Assembly: GCA_028284705.1 (NCBI GenBank)
Contig: JANQRE010000001.1
Span: 62,001-126,000, forward strand
Direction of reading: 5' to 3'
DNA length: 64,000 nt
Source of the DNA: Paracoccaceae bacterium
Lineage (GTDB): Bacteria; Pseudomonadota; Alphaproteobacteria; Rhodobacterales; Rhodobacteraceae
A program made the translations under genes and the position numbers. This document shows positions 7,397-25,045 of this stretch, one piece after another. The notes under the pieces were generated by a model that saw only the letters and a program-made list of their open reading frames with translations, was not told the origin of the DNA and did no database searches. The first letter of the stretch is position 1; every line of letters begins with the position of its first letter.

Positions 7397-7731
7397 TCCG
7401 CCTGTGCTTAGCCTTGATCGCCCTCGCATCCCCCGCCTTCGCCGATGCCGACGGCCCGGATGCCTGGCAGGTGACGGGCGTGGCGGCAAACGATGTTCTG
7501 AACCTGCGGGCAGGCCCCGGAACAGAATACCCGATCAAGGGCGCCCTCCCGCCTAACGCACGGAAAGTTAAGGCAGATATCTGCGTGCCGACCCTGACGG
7601 ATGGCGAATATTTCGCCCTCTCCGAGAAGGACAAGGACGCCATCGCAGGCCTCCAACGCTGGTGCCATGTGACCGGGGCGGAAGGCCAGCGCGGCTGGGC
7701 AAACATGCGCTACATGGCGGAAGACCCCTGA
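7393..7731 (+). CDS. Secreted bacterial SH3 (SH3b) domain protein
   Basis: This 112-residue protein has a signal peptide ending near SPAFADA. One SH3b domain follows, recognisable by [20 protein letters not shown] and the closing [11 protein letters not shown]. Such domains bind peptidoglycan or cell-wall ligands, so a periplasmic place is likely. Three cysteines/tryptophans in the middle (DICVPT, RWCHV) may form a disulphide. The ATG overlaps the valS stop (ATGA), which implies translational coupling. The exact role is unknown. Confidence 0.8.
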
Positions 7732-10509: not shown

Positions 10510-11706
10510 TCATTCCGCGCACATCTTGGCCGCAGCCGCGACCCCACCGGGCCCGTGGGGAATGTCCAAAGCCTGCAAACCCGCCTCAATGCTGCCAAGT
10601 GTGCCGAGCAGCATATGCGCATTGAGATGTCCCATATGTCCGACCCGGAAAAAGCCATCCGCTGCCGGATCGTCAGGCGTTGCCATTCCAAGACCGATCC
10701 CGAGCGTGACCCCTGCGCGCTCGGTCAGCCAGTTGCGCAACTGCGTCCCGAAGGGTGCGCCGATGCGCACGGATGTCACCGCATTGGAGCGATGCGCCGG
10801 ATCGGACACGTTCAGCTCAATCGGACCCTCTGCGCCCCAGGCGTCAAACGCCGCCCAGACGGCGCGGGCCAGTTGCGCGTGACGCGCCCAGATTGTCTCC
10901 ATCCCCTCTTCATGGACCATCATGTCGAGCGCCGTGCGCAGGCCATAGAGATGGTGGGTCGGCGCGGTGCCACACCAATATTGGTAATATTGCTCGGGAT
11001 GCGCCCGCGGCACCCAATCCCAATAGCTGGAGACGCGCTCGACCTTCTGGCGTGCGACCGCCGCTTTATCGTTGAAATACACAAAACACATGCCTGGCGG
11101 GGTCATCAGCCCCTTCTGTGAACCCGCAATCACCACATCGACACCCCATGCATCCATCTGCATCTCATCGCAGCCCAGACAGGCAATGGAATCCACCAAA
11201 AGAAGCGCCGGATGCTCAACCGCATTCAGGACCTGACGCAGGGCTTGAATGTCATTTTTGACCGAGGTTGCGGTGTCCACCTGGACGGCCAGTATCGCCT
11301 TGATCTCATGCGCTTTGTCGGCGCGCAAAGTGGTTTCGACCGCGTCGAGATCAATCGGCGAGCGTTTCCCGAAATCGAGAAGCTGCGGCTCGATCCCAAG
11401 CCGCGCGGCCATATCCGCCCAGCCATGGCTGAACATACCGGTTACCGGAACCAGGACCTTATCGCCGGGGTTTAGAACATTGACGAGAGAGGCTTCCCAG
11501 GCCGCATGACCATTGCCGATATACATCGCGACATGGCCCTCGGTACGGGCCACTGCCTTCAAATCCGGCACCAGCCCCGCGGTCATATCGATCAGCTCGC
11601 CGGTATAGATGTTCGGCGCCGGGCGATGCATGGCCTGGAGCACGCGATCCGGCATGATCGAGGGGCCGGGGATCGCAAGCGTGTGGCGTCCATTGGCGAG
11701 GGTCAT
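10510..11706 (-). CDS. Class V PLP aminotransferase (alanine/serine-glyoxylate type)
   Basis: The 398-residue protein has the class V signatures IPGPSIMPDRVLQAM at the N-terminus, YIGNGHAAWEA, LLLVDSIACLG and the PLP lysine in AGSQKGLMTPPG near residue 200. Late blocks include YGLRTAL and FRVGHMGHLN. The family transfers amino groups from serine, alanine or aspartate to glyoxylate. Neighbours do not specify the donor. I chose ATG at 11706, which has AAGGA eight bases upstream, over the GTG two codons earlier used by the track. Confidence 0.85.
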   Translation of the reverse strand: MTLANGRHTLAIPGPSIMPDRVLQAMHRPAPNIYTGELIDMTAGLVPDLKAVARTEGHVAMYIGNGHAAWEASLVNVLNPGDKVLVPVTGMFSHGWADMAARLGIEPQLLDFGKRSPIDLDAVETTLRADKAHEIKAILAVQVDTATSVKNDIQALRQVLNAVEHPALLLVDSIACLGCDEMQMDAWGVDVVIAGSQKGLMTPPGMCFVYFNDKAAVARQKVERVSSYWDWVPRAHPEQYYQYWCGTAPTHHLYGLRTALDMMVHEEGMETIWARHAQLARAVWAAFDAWGAEGPIELNVSDPAHRSNAVTSVRIGAPFGTQLRNWLTERAGVTLGIGLGMATPDDPAADGFFRVGHMGHLNAHMLLGTLGSIEAGLQALDIPHGPGGVAAAAKMCAE

Positions 11707-21007: not shown

Positions 21008-21123
21008 TCAAGGGGCTTCTGACCCTTGTGGCGATTTTCCTTCTGCTCGTCGGCCTGCTCGTCTTCGCCAAAACCCGCCCCGCAAATAGCGCCACGCCTG
21101 TGGTGCTTTTGCATCACGGATAA
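21004..21123 (+). CDS. Possible 39-residue membrane peptide overlapping the topA stop
   Basis: A GTG at 21004 overlaps the topA stop (GTGA). It opens a short frame with a basic N-terminus (MIKG when GTG is read as Met) and a strong single membrane span rich in Leu, Val and Phe, followed by KTRPANSATPVVLLHHG. Translational coupling to topA is possible. However, the stretch is fully antisense to the arginine-rich C-terminus of the convergent glycosyltransferase ORF, and at most one frame is likely to be constrained there. Confidence 0.4.
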   Translation: MIKGLLTLVAIFLLLVGLLVFAKTRPANSATPVVLLHHG

Positions 21124-22423
21124 GCTCAGGTCTCCGCGATAGGAGCCTGCGCCGCGCTCGACGTCTGAGCGGCGGCGATCCCGTAAAGAACGCGATGGCG
21201 GATTTTGTGGTTCGTTCCGGATGGAACTTTTGCCCCGCCGCGCGTGCCTCACGCACCGCCACCCCGTAAGCAGCTTCGTCGTCCCAAAGCGATGTCAGAG
21301 CGTTCCACCACCGCGTGACCGTCTCCGGATCAGGAAACTGGAACGGGTCGGACCTGCAAACGGCGGGGATATCAAGGAGCCTGCCAGCCCCGTTCAGGGC
21401 CTCCGGCAACCCGCCATGGGTGCTGGCCAGAACCGGCACGCCGGACAAATGCGCCTCGACCGCCGCGCGGCCAAATCCTTCGCGCCAATAGGACGGCATC
21501 AGCAGCATAGAGGTCCGGGCATAGATGCTGGCCATATCCCGCTGCACCGGCAGCAGGTGGACATTCGGCAGAGACGTCAGATCGACGGAAGCCTGCCGCA
21601 GCACATCGCGCGTCATCAGACCTTCGAGCACCAGAAACCTCATATCTGGCCGGTCCTGAGCCGCCCTCCGCGCCAGTTCGATCAACAAAGTCAGACCCTT
21701 CTGGGGCACAGGGTTGATCAGGGTGACATAGCCGCGACGCCGCTCGGCATCTGACCTGCTGTCGCCCGGACCGGGCTCGGCCACAAACCGATCGGGTGCT
21801 ATGATCGGGTGCACAACGTCCACGGGGCCTGAGAGGCGCGCGCCGTAATGCGCGGCAAGAAATTGCGAGGGACAGATCGCGCGATCGCCGGAGTGAAACC
21901 AGTCGCTCCCGGGGATTTCCGCGTTGCCGAGATAGAAAACCACCTGTGCTCCGGTCGCGCGGATGGCCGCATGCAGGTGCCTGGCATGCGATCCGGTCCC
22001 ATAGGTGATGACGATGTCAGGGGTCCGCGCCGCGAGAAAAGCCCGGCAAGCTTGTTGCATCCGACGGCACTCCTCGCCGGTCAACGCGTATTTGCGCGAG
22101 CTTTCTGTGCGCATCACGAAATGCCGGACCTGGGAGCGCGTCACCTGAACGATTCCGTTGCGATCTGCGGTCATTGTGCTTCCGGTTTGCGCGATCCGGT
22201 CCTCCAACACGACCTCGCTATTGGTATCGAACAGGGCGGCGGAGAAACTCGTGGCCTCAGCCCCATGTCGCGCAAGGGCCTCCAGGATCGCATGGATCGA
22301 ATGTGCAATCCCGCTGGCATCATCAAGCAGGCATTTCGATCCGATATAGGCGATCCGCAGACCGCGCCCGAACCGGCCATTTGGTTGGGCGGCGGGCGCA
22401 GTCAATTGCGTTTGGTTGTCCAC
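21008..22423 (-). CDS. GT-B glycosyltransferase (group 1/GT4-like) of the ECF-sigma block
   Basis: The 471-residue protein has a Rossmann start (RIAYIGSKCLLDDASGIAHS) and a donor-site domain with GYVTLINPVPQKGL near residue 245. The retaining-GT signature is SYWREGFGRAAVEAHLSGVPVLAS near residue 330. The residues after about 410 become arginine-rich (RRRARRRLLSRR) and continue until the window base next to the topA stop, so the true C-terminus may be earlier. Its start lies 12 bases after the 106-residue gene, so the two are probably one unit under the upstream ECF-type promoter. The acceptor is unknown; the small proteins encoded upstream are plausible targets. Confidence 0.8.
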   Translation of the reverse strand: MDNQTQLTAPAAQPNGRFGRGLRIAYIGSKCLLDDASGIAHSIHAILEALARHGAEATSFSAALFDTNSEVVLEDRIAQTGSTMTADRNGIVQVTRSQVRHFVMRTESSRKYALTGEECRRMQQACRAFLAARTPDIVITYGTGSHARHLHAAIRATGAQVVFYLGNAEIPGSDWFHSGDRAICPSQFLAAHYGARLSGPVDVVHPIIAPDRFVAEPGPGDSRSDAERRRGYVTLINPVPQKGLTLLIELARRAAQDRPDMRFLVLEGLMTRDVLRQASVDLTSLPNVHLLPVQRDMASIYARTSMLLMPSYWREGFGRAAVEAHLSGVPVLASTHGGLPEALNGAGRLLDIPAVCRSDPFQFPDPETVTRWWNALTSLWDDEAAYGVAVREARAAGQKFHPERTTKSAIAFFTGSPPLRRRARRRLLSRRPELIRDAKAPQAWRYLRGGFWRRRAGRRAEGKSPQGSEAP

Positions 22424-22435
22424 GATTTCGAGCTG

Positions 22436-22756
22436 TCAGAGCGTGAGGTCGAATTCCAGAAAGGCCGGCTCACCGGGTTCGACATAGTAGTCCTTGGACG
22501 ACTCGATTGATGCGCCGATAACGTGGCTCGGCACTGGTCCCAAAAGGAGTGACGCGAGATCGTTGGAAACATCCAGCACTAGGGAACCATCATCGGTTTC
22601 GAAGACGAAGTCGTCGAAGGCGAGGACTTGTAAGGCGTCGCCTTTCGGTTGCGGTTCGGGATCACGCTGCAGATCGAGCTCGTCGATCATATCATCGCCG
22701 GACCCGCCAAATACGTCGGGGTTGGTGTTCGCATCAAATTTCAAAGCTGTTGGCAT
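22436..22756 (-). CDS. 106-residue acidic protein of unknown family, with one RTX-like nonapeptide
   Basis: The product begins MPTALKFDANTNPDVFGG and continues with GGSGDDMID, which fits the RTX calcium-binding nonapeptide once, and only once. The rest is acidic with alternating hydrophobic residues (QVLAFDDFVFETDDGSLVL) and looks like a beta-rich domain. It has no signal peptide, membrane span or cysteine. The ATG has AGGAGA at good spacing. A CATCC/CCGA promoter-like element lies about 45 bases upstream. It may be a type I secretion substrate or a modified small protein; neither is shown by the sequence. Confidence 0.65.
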   Translation of the reverse strand: MPTALKFDANTNPDVFGGSGDDMIDELDLQRDPEPQPKGDALQVLAFDDFVFETDDGSLVLDVSNDLASLLLGPVPSHVIGASIESSKDYYVEPGEPAFLEFDLTL

Positions 22757-22799
22757 TTTTCTCTCCTATGGTTTTGGCAACTCCATGCCGTGTGCAGGT

Positions 22800-22828
22800 G
22801 GATCGGGAGTTGCCGGCTGTTTGGATGC
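22800..22828 (-). promoter_or_regulatory. ECF-type promoter candidate upstream of the 106-residue gene
   Basis: On the reverse strand GCATCCAA is followed, with exactly 16 bases between CATCC and CCGA, by CCGATCC. The arrangement is the same as at 23475-23504 and 23560-23587 and resembles the known SigK type (CCATCC/CCGAAT). It lies 44 bases before the ATG. Confidence 0.6.
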
Positions 22829-22904
22829 AGGGATCACGCGCTCGTGAAGCCCCGCATGTCCGGTGTGACAGGCGAGGCGCTGGCCGCGTCCTCGCCTGAC
22901 GCAG

Positions 22905-23423
22905 TCACCCGATGGACTCGATTACGCGTTTCAGGACACTCGGCGGGAACTTCCGCGGGTCCTCCAAACGGGTCGTGCCGTCCGGTCCAAGAAGGCTGCC
23001 GGGTCCATCTATTTGCAAGGGCACGCACAGGCCGTCGATCGACGAGACAACGATCACCACGCTCGCCTTTTCGACGGCGATGAAGCAATGCGGGTCATGC
23101 GGATCGACGATCAGGAACGGACGCACATAGATCTCGAGCGGGTCTGTGTCGCGGAATTTTGCATCCGCGAAGGGGATACAGACACAATCGTCAGGGCAGG
23201 TGCCGCGCACGCTTTCAGCCGCAGCTTTCAGGCGCTGTTCGGCCAGGCGGATCAGTTTCTTCTGCTGAGCTGGCGAGCAGGTCGCGCCGAAGCTGAATTC
23301 AATCACCCGCGCCTCTTTGACGGACACGATGGTGATGCGGCACTCGTTGCCAACACAGGCCCAAGGGTCCAAATCGGGGCCCGGCAGGGGTATCAGATCA
23401 GGTGGGTTAGAATTGCTACACAT
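22905..23423 (-). CDS. 172-residue cysteine-rich protein of unknown family
   Basis: No domain is recognised. The protein has eight cysteines in pairs or clusters (MCSNS, WACVGNEC, GATCS, GTCPDDCVC, PHCFI, GLCVPL), a helical stretch with KKLIRLAEQRLKAAAESVRG, and several beta-type stretches (ASVVIVVSS). No signal peptide or membrane segment is seen, so the cysteines may bind metal or be modified in the cytoplasm rather than form disulphides. AAGGAG lies seven bases before the ATG. It is the first gene of the leftward unit and has its own CATCC/CCGA promoter-like element. It faces the sigma factor gene divergently. Confidence 0.65.
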   Translation of the reverse strand: MCSNSNPPDLIPLPGPDLDPWACVGNECRITIVSVKEARVIEFSFGATCSPAQQKKLIRLAEQRLKAAAESVRGTCPDDCVCIPFADAKFRDTDPLEIYVRPFLIVDPHDPHCFIAVEKASVVIVVSSIDGLCVPLQIDGPGSLLGPDGTTRLEDPRKFPPSVLKRVIESIG

Positions 23424-23474
23424 ATCTCTCTCCTTTCAATGAAATCGGCGCACCCTCTTGGCGACGCCAACCAT

Positions 23475-23504
23475 GGAATCGGAGAGACAGCAGCGATTGG
23501 ATGC
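23475..23504 (-). promoter_or_regulatory. ECF-type promoter candidate upstream of the 172-residue gene
   Basis: On the reverse strand GCATCCAA and CCGATTCC are separated so that 16 bases lie between CATCC and CCGA. The element is 52 bases upstream of the ATG and shares form and spacing with the other two elements of this block. Confidence 0.65.
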
Positions 23505-23559
23505 AGGCGGTTGCGAGATTTCCCGCAAAATCGGCCGTTTTCACCAAGTCGTGAACATT

Positions 23560-23587
23560 TCATCCAAATCGATGTCTCGGACCGAAC
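23560..23587 (+). promoter_or_regulatory. ECF-type promoter candidate upstream of the sigma gene
   Basis: On the forward strand TCATCCAA and CCGAAC are separated by the same 16-base spacer. It points to the sigma/anti-sigma pair and suggests autoregulation. The transcript would have a long leader that contains a 16-codon ORF. Confidence 0.6.
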
Positions 23588-23622
23588 TGGAAGTGTTCAC
23601 GATTTCTTGAGGAGATGACCCC

Positions 23623-23673
23623 ATGCCCCGTTGTTTTCGATCCGATCCTGACCATCCGGCGCCTCGACTGTGA
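23623..23673 (+). CDS. 16-codon leader ORF before the sigma factor
   Basis: ATG at 23623 follows GAGGAG at good spacing and encodes MPRCFRSDPDHPAPRL. Its TGA overlaps a GTG at 23670 that opens the long form of the sigma ORF. This could couple translation of the two, or be a regulatory leader. The length makes it uncertain. Confidence 0.3.
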   Translation: MPRCFRSDPDHPAPRL

Positions 23674-23774
23674 GAACCTGCTTTGAGGGACAGGCCTTGC
23701 CCTCTTCCCGCCAGGTGTCGCCCACCGCGCGGGATTTCTCGCGCGGGCATTCCGTGTTACATGAGACATTCGGA

Positions 23775-24311
23775 GTGGAGACTGGCCTCTTGCTGGATGA
23801 CGAGAAGCTCGCTGGGTTAATCACGCGCACGGCAGAGGGTGACCGCGAGGCTTTCAGGTCGCTCTACGATCAGACCAGCGGCTGGATGTTGGCCATCTCG
23901 ATGAAGATACTGCGCCGTCGCGACCTGGCCGAAGAAGCCATTCAGGACGCCTTCGTGTCGATCTGGAAACAGGCAGAGCGTTACGACAGGACATCCGGAT
24001 CGCCGCGCGGCTGGATGGCGACGATCACGCGACGGCGGGCCATAGATCGGTTGCGGGCGAGCCCCTGGTTGGCACGCGAAAACTCGGAGATACCGGATGC
24101 CGCCGGGATCATCGCGCGCCTGCCCGAACGGCTCGCGTTGCGGCAATGCCTTGAGCGACTGGACGCGCGCACCCGACACTCGATCTGTCTTGCTTATCTG
24201 TACGGCCTGTCACATAGCGAGTTGAGCGAGAAGACGGGGCTCCCGCTCGGCACGATCAAGTCGCGCTTGCGGCGGGGCTTAATGTCTTTGAAGGAGTGCC
24301 TGGAAGAATGA
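23775..24311 (+). CDS. ECF sigma factor, SigK-like
   Basis: The protein has sigma region 2 (FRSLYDQTSGWMLAISMKILRRRDLAEEAIQDAFVSIWKQ) and region 4 with the helix-turn-helix YGLSHSELSEKTGLPLGTIKSRLRRGL. This is the SigK-like ECF layout. The start is unclear: GTG 23775 gives the usual length of about 178 residues. GTG 23754 and GTG 23670 (213 residues, the track ORF, coupled to a leader ORF) are also in frame. It overlaps its anti-sigma gene by ATGA. The divergent genes carry the same promoter-like element as this gene, so it probably controls them and itself. Confidence 0.88.
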   Translation: METGLLLDDEKLAGLITRTAEGDREAFRSLYDQTSGWMLAISMKILRRRDLAEEAIQDAFVSIWKQAERYDRTSGSPRGWMATITRRRAIDRLRASPWLARENSEIPDAAGIIARLPERLALRQCLERLDARTRHSICLAYLYGLSHSELSEKTGLPLGTIKSRLRRGLMSLKECLEE

Positions 24312-24799
24312 GTAAAAAGAAACCCCATCTGGCCGACCTTCTGTTTGATGGCAGTTCCGACGACGACATGTCGCCGGACCTGTTGGCGATGGAAACCAGG
24401 CTGGCGGCGCTGCATGGCGATGCGGCTGAGACACCCTCGCCTGATCTGTGGGACCGGATCGAGACGCGCATCGACCGCGATGCCTCCGCTCCGGGAACCG
24501 AGACCATCCCGCTCGAAGAAGGCGTCTGGGAAATCCTGACCGAAGGGATCGAACGCAAGGTGGTGCAAATCGACAGCGCCGCCGGGTTGCAGAGTTACTT
24601 CATCCGCATGCGATCCGGTGCCGTCTTTCCGATCCATCAACATGACGCCGACGAGCACTGCGTGATCCTGGACGGAGAACTCGAGATCGGCGGTCATGTG
24701 CACGGGCCCGGCACGTTTCATCTGGCCAGAAGCGGGCAACCGCATGTTCCCATCACCGCAAGAAGCGACGCGCTTTTCTTCATCCGCGGCGCCATCTGA
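24308..24799 (+). CDS. Cytoplasmic cupin anti-sigma factor (ChrR-like C-terminus)
   Basis: The 163-residue protein lacks membrane spans. Its N-terminal part ends in PDLWDRIETRIDRD, similar to the helix after the anti-sigma domain in RskA-type proteins. It lacks the HxxxCxxC zinc motif of ChrR. The C-terminal half is a ChrR-type cupin with metal ligands in FPIHQHDADEHCVILDGELE and a later histidine (GQPHVPI). It most likely holds the sigma factor inactive until the cupin senses a signal, perhaps a metal, oxidant or small molecule. The overlap with the sigma stop (ATGA) supports partnership. Confidence 0.82.
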   Translation: MSKKKPHLADLLFDGSSDDDMSPDLLAMETRLAALHGDAAETPSPDLWDRIETRIDRDASAPGTETIPLEEGVWEILTEGIERKVVQIDSAAGLQSYFIRMRSGAVFPIHQHDADEHCVILDGELEIGGHVHGPGTFHLARSGQPHVPITARSDALFFIRGAI

Positions 24800-25045
24800 C
24801 AAAGCGATTTGGGCAGAGCGGTGATGCCGTTATGCACAGCGAAGGGGCATGTCTGACCCTGGCTCGACCGCTAAATCGGCCCAAGACAGCTCCGGTTGAT
24901 GCCAAAAGTCTGGCCGGCAGCGCCGGTGCCGGAATCCAGGGGCGCGGCTGCGAGACTGAGGTCGATCCTGACCGAGATAACGTGCATGGCTTGAATTTCC
25001 CCGGCAACTGCCCGACATGGAGGGAAGATCACCAAAGGACCCTTC

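Follow-up and report, generated by a model that had tools for sequence, protein, structure and literature searches.

Three CATCC/CCGA elements as probable promoters of a SigK-like ECF sigma factor with a soluble cupin partner in a Paracoccaceae genome

In the stretch of DNA analysed here (the window, 64 kb from the genome of a Paracoccaceae bacterium), a block of genes at 21008–25000 sits between topA and a nitroreductase gene. It contains an ECF sigma factor gene, which a putative anti-sigma gene overlaps by ATGA, and two divergent units that encode a 172-aa cysteine-rich protein and a 106-aa acidic protein; the gene for the latter is probably in an operon with a glycosyltransferase gene, the gap between them being about 12 nt (Table 1). 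A further regulator gene was not found inside the block. Because topA and the nitroreductase gene are immediate neighbours in seven of nine same-genus genomes checked, we regard the block as an islet in this species, which was either gained here or lost elsewhere.

Table 1. Genes, candidate promoters and a possible leader ORF of the sigma factor block (window positions).
Feature	Position	Strand	Remarks
Glycosyltransferase, family-4 type	21008..22423	-	Pfam Glycos_transf_1 + Glyco_trans_1_4
106-aa acidic protein, no family	22436..22756	-	pI 4.05; predicted target of promoter 1
Candidate promoter 1	22803..22827	-	TG-CATCCAAACAGCCGGCAACTCCCGA-TCC; ATG of 106-aa ORF (probable operon with glycosyltransferase) 47 nt downstream
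172-aa cysteine-rich protein, no family	22905..23423	-	9 Cys; predicted target of promoter 2
Candidate promoter 2	23479..23503	-	TG-CATCCAATCGCTGCTGTCTCTCCGA-TTCC; ATG of 172-aa ORF 56 nt downstream
Candidate promoter 3	23561..23585	+	TT-CATCCAAATCGATGTCTCGGACCGA-ACTGG; 37 nt to 16-aa leader ORF, 85 nt to sigma GTG 23670
Possible 16-aa leader ORF (MPRCFRSDPDHPAPRL)	23623..23673	+	AGGAG 9 nt upstream; stop overlaps GTG 23670
ECF sigma factor, SigK-like	23670..24311	+	Pfam Sigma70_r2/r4; best PDB match SigK 4nqw; start uncertain: GTG 23670, GTG 23775 or TTG 23790
Putative soluble anti-sigma factor, 163 aa	24308..24799	+	N-terminal helices + ChrR-type cupin domain (Cupin_7)

The sigma factor, in which Pfam regions 2 and 4 are present, has M. 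tuberculosis SigK (4nqw) as its nearest match among solved structures (2e-25, 92 bits, compared to 1e-17 and 67 bits for RpoE). SigK is also the top NCBIfam model at 142.5 bits, with PRK12514 narrowly behind at 141; because this score is below the curated SigK cut-off (PRK09646, 226 bits), we call the protein SigK-like rather than SigK proper. In pairwise comparison it shares 34% identity with both SigK and RpoE, so its nearness to SigK rests on the scores. The SigK cysteine pair C133/C183, found in 94% of ECF18, 56% of ECF19 and fewer than 2% of other groups (PMC7509140), is aligned in the block's sigma factor, in a close relative from another genome (G127, see below) and at five further cupin-type loci. 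Given the nearest structure and this cysteine pair, we agree with an earlier, sequence-only reading of the window that the sigma factor is SigK-like.

The membrane anti-sigma factor RskA is absent beside the sigma gene, and the partner is a soluble protein whose cupin domain (Pfam, 4.5e-13) has the site H110-x-H112-x3-E116-x29-H146. The structural model of the partner matches the ChrR fold over both domains, with the N-terminal helix region modelled at low confidence (pLDDT ~40–65), and its scores are below the NCBIfam ChrR cut-offs (16 bits vs 124.5; 18.9 vs 300). The zinc-site N-terminal cysteines are absent; the protein has a single cysteine, C118, which belongs to the cupin domain.

For the 172-aa protein, no relatives were found in 298 genomes of the family, and its single-sequence fold was uninformative (pLDDT 38). 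A tblastn search of the other cupin-type loci found no relative of either target protein or of the glycosyltransferase.

Searching the 64-kb window for the pattern CATCC-N16-CCGA returns exact matches at the three candidate promoters of Table 1. The −35 region reads TGCATCCAA at sites 1 and 2 and TTCATCCAA at site 3, and the corresponding −10 words are CCGATC, CCGATT and CCGAAC. Within the block, a search for CATCC and CCGA at other gaps from 10 to 22 found none but one, at gap 21. The sequence-only reading had described three elements with an identical 16-base gap, each before a gene of the block. Both points hold; the coordinates fall 1–4 bases inside the limits it gave, and the genes concerned are the 106-aa ORF with the glycosyltransferase gene, the 172-aa ORF, and the sigma gene with the anti-sigma gene. 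The common form that it proposed, YCATCCAA, fits the third site only, the base preceding CATCC being G, G and T at sites 1, 2 and 3. When the sites are set against the SigK consensus as it was quoted there (CCATCC/CCGAAT), CATCC and CCGA agree, and the preceding bases and the −10 words are those just listed.

Dinucleotide shuffling gives an expectation of 1.35–1.42 matches per 64-kb window, from which the chance of three matches inside 788 bp at a given place is about 9e-7. Two other matches occur in the window, at 7427 (+) and 42031 (−), 15–19 kb from the block. Genome-wide we count 66 matches in 4.036 Mb, so the short pattern is not rare; from this density, about 0.005 triplets this tight would be expected across the genome, and no second triplet within 1 kb is present among the 66. 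The earlier judgement that three same-gap matches in 800 bases are improbable by chance is therefore upheld. An extended form that fits all known copies, CATCCR-N15-CCGAWY, has 13 genome matches, of which three, all in the block, lie no more than 100 nt before a gene, while each of the other ten is either inside a predicted gene or has no gene ahead of it. The whole-genome count that had been suggested as a check on the pattern thus points two ways: the short form is common, and promoter position is restricted to the block's three sites.

When one mismatch was allowed, all further matches in the genome were inside genes except C9:101573 (GCATCGAA...CCGATT). This site (G000:C9:101573-101600, L089), which reads GCATCGAA-N14-CCGATT, is followed at a distance of about 300 nt by a gene resembling gamma-glutamyltransferase; it is weak and could be an outlying regulon member. 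We also noted that CATCCAA-N14-CCGA has 11 genome matches, compared to a mean of 1.8 for the remaining twelve gaps in the range 8–20. The excess outside the block (8 vs 1.8) was taken as a fluctuation, with the sites inside genes or facing no gene.

A search with the anti-sigma factor found one locus closely related to the sigma/anti-sigma pair, in a Rhodobacter-named MAG from the same family and another genus (G127), with identities of 54% for the anti-sigma and 47% for the sigma factor. There, TGCATCCG-N15-CCGATCC, with the exact gap of 16, stands 51 nt before the start of the gene divergent from sigma, not before the sigma gene itself. The divergent gene encodes 346 aa and is unrelated to the block's targets. 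Eleven CATCCR-N15-CCGAWY matches occur in this genome, and the only one no more than 370 nt before a gene is the one beside the related sigma gene. This is the sole other locus with the full gap-16 motif. We then compared every 5-mer/4-mer pair at gaps of 12–20 in four upstream regions (the three of the block and that of G127); in this exhaustive search CATCC-16-CCGA was the sole pair common to all four, and random triplets of window regions had any common pair in 0.45% of 2000 trials. Unlike the window's block, the G127 sigma block has Hint-like and H-lectin-like genes nearby, as judged by eye (L033:6167-7776, 10549-11079).

Further alphaproteobacteria carry the cupin-type pair, with anti-sigma identities of 34–45%. 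In seven distant cupin-type sigma loci, CATCC-N16-CCGA was not found. Of the related loci searched for the pattern, as the sequence-only reading had suggested, G127 has it in promoter position and these seven do not have it. At L053, L054 and L057, distant cupin-type sigma pairs adjoin genes that, judged from their sequences, look like those of a c-type cytochrome and of a ferritin-like protein exported by the Tat pathway. Such neighbours likely represent a different regulon of the same sigma group.

Plasmid SigK-like sigma factors with ordinary anti-sigma genes adjoin fasciclin, DUF4331 or DUF4394 genes; where the neighbour is a fasciclin gene, the arrangement is that of the mpt83-sigK-rskA cassette already described (PMC7509140). 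At ten plasmid SigK-type loci, CATCC-N16-CCGA at gap 16 was not found before genes. However, GCATCCAA, which has six copies in total on both strands of these loci, precedes five of 21 gene starts (0.02 expected), those of sigma, DUF4331 and DUF4394 genes, and GCATCCR precedes seven of the 21 (0.57 expected). The −35 of the window's sites is therefore the one used in this sigma group, whereas the −10 differs. The plasmid-locus −35s often have an A/T tract upstream, and four occur with CCGTTT, CCGTTA, TCGTAT or CCGTAT at gap 15; in RskA-type relatives from proteobacteria, the −10 is CCGTWT-like with a gap of 15, or else a clear site is lacking. In Pseudoalteromonas and Pantoea plasmid loci (L115:2940-2990, L115:4295-4330, L119:2270-2310, L123:4280-4320), an A/T tract, TGCATCC and a CCGTWT-like word are seen before sigma, fasciclin and DUF4331 genes.

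From these sequence comparisons, it seems very likely that the three elements are promoters of the block's own SigK-type ECF sigma factor and that they make up a small, local, autoregulated regulon, whose detectable extent is essentially confined to the block. The view of the elements as ECF promoters, already taken in the sequence-only reading, gains support from the motif in promoter position in G127 and from GCATCCAA at distant SigK-type loci. Since we infer the specificity of the sigma factor, and the genome may hold several ECF sigma factors, the promoters could instead be read by another one of them. This seems improbable to us, as this genome and that of G127, which belong to different genera, have copies in promoter position only beside the related sigma genes, and SigK-type loci elsewhere have the same −35 beside theirs. 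Sites 2 and 3 are divergent and 57 bp apart, which could suit a shared regulator, and the motifs might then be repressor or activator binding sites rather than −35/−10 boxes. We consider this very unlikely given their promoter geometry, that is, two unlike half-words at a fixed 16-nt gap that are non-palindromic, gene-directed and 37–56 nt from a start codon, and given that the block has no other regulator gene; a sigma-70-like promoter was also not found in the block, a weak argument because 1.0 is expected by chance. Finally, although a short G+C-rich pattern with 66 genome matches, those examined outside the block being inside genes or facing no gene, could coincide by chance, this is hardly credible for three copies within 783 bp (a chance of about 9e-7 for any one given place) when the motif also stands in promoter position at the related G127 locus and the −35 is enriched at other SigK-type loci.

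If the three elements are promoters of the block's sigma factor, RNA polymerase with this sigma factor would read the −35 (GCATCCAA or TCATCCAA) and the −10 (CCGAWY). The adjacent soluble protein most likely keeps the sigma factor inactive, with its N-terminal helices binding sigma, and its ChrR-type cupin domain may sense a signal, which could be a metal, a ligand or an oxidant. Once released, the sigma factor would act on its own operon via promoter 3 and on the two divergent units, namely the 172-aa protein via promoter 2 and the 106-aa protein and glycosyltransferase via promoter 1. What the sequences show directly is the motif with its spacing and positions, how nearly unique it is in promoter position, its return at related loci and the relationships of the proteins; that the block's sigma factor recognises the sites and regulates itself, that the cupin protein inhibits it, and what the signal may be are steps that we infer.

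The general kind of system is known. The block is similar to SigK-RskA (ECF18/ECF19; Mycobacterium, Yersinia; fasciclin target MPT83/MPT70) in sigma sequence and cysteine pair, and it has the −35 GCATCC in common with SigK-type loci of other proteobacteria. However, SigK-RskA has the membrane protein RskA where the block has a soluble cupin partner; the block's targets, unlike those at SigK-type loci, include no fasciclin, DUF4331 or DUF4394 protein; and its −10 is CCGAWY at gap 16, compared to CCGTWT-like words at gap 15 in plasmid SigK-type loci. As in RpoE-ChrR (ECF11, Rhodobacter sphaeroides), the partner is a soluble, ChrR-type cupin protein, with a fold match over both domains, yet the N-terminal zinc-binding cysteines of ChrR are absent from it and the sigma factor is closer to SigK than to RpoE (92 vs 67 bits). 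The RpoE promoter, TGATCC/TAAGA, has a −10 that differs from the block's. ECF19 members with soluble anti-sigma factors are already on record, for example WP_016472479.1 from Streptomyces albus, which resembles the block in combining a SigK-type sigma factor with a soluble anti-sigma factor (PMC8999054). What is new is the detail: a cysteine-bearing SigK-type sigma factor with a cupin anti-sigma factor that has no zinc cysteines, and this set of targets.

It is tempting to speculate that an alphaproteobacterial SigK-type subfamily swapped membrane RskA for a soluble cupin anti-sigma factor without zinc-site cysteines, and its fasciclin/DUF4331 targets for a private set (the orphan cysteine-rich protein, the acidic protein and the glycosyltransferase), keeping the −35 while the −10 and the gap shifted; we offer this tentatively, as a scenario that may well be wrong. 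The sites provide a concrete candidate promoter sequence for little-studied SigK-type sigma factors whose partner is a soluble cupin protein rather than RskA, and they define a compact, testable regulon of three promoters and five genes in an islet. A common −35 with a varying −10 and gap could help show which parts of the sigma factor read which bases; the broader reach is modest.

The possible 16-aa leader ORF between promoter 3 and the sigma gene is not conserved in G127. In the block, it would couple its translation to that of a sigma factor carrying an N-terminal extension.
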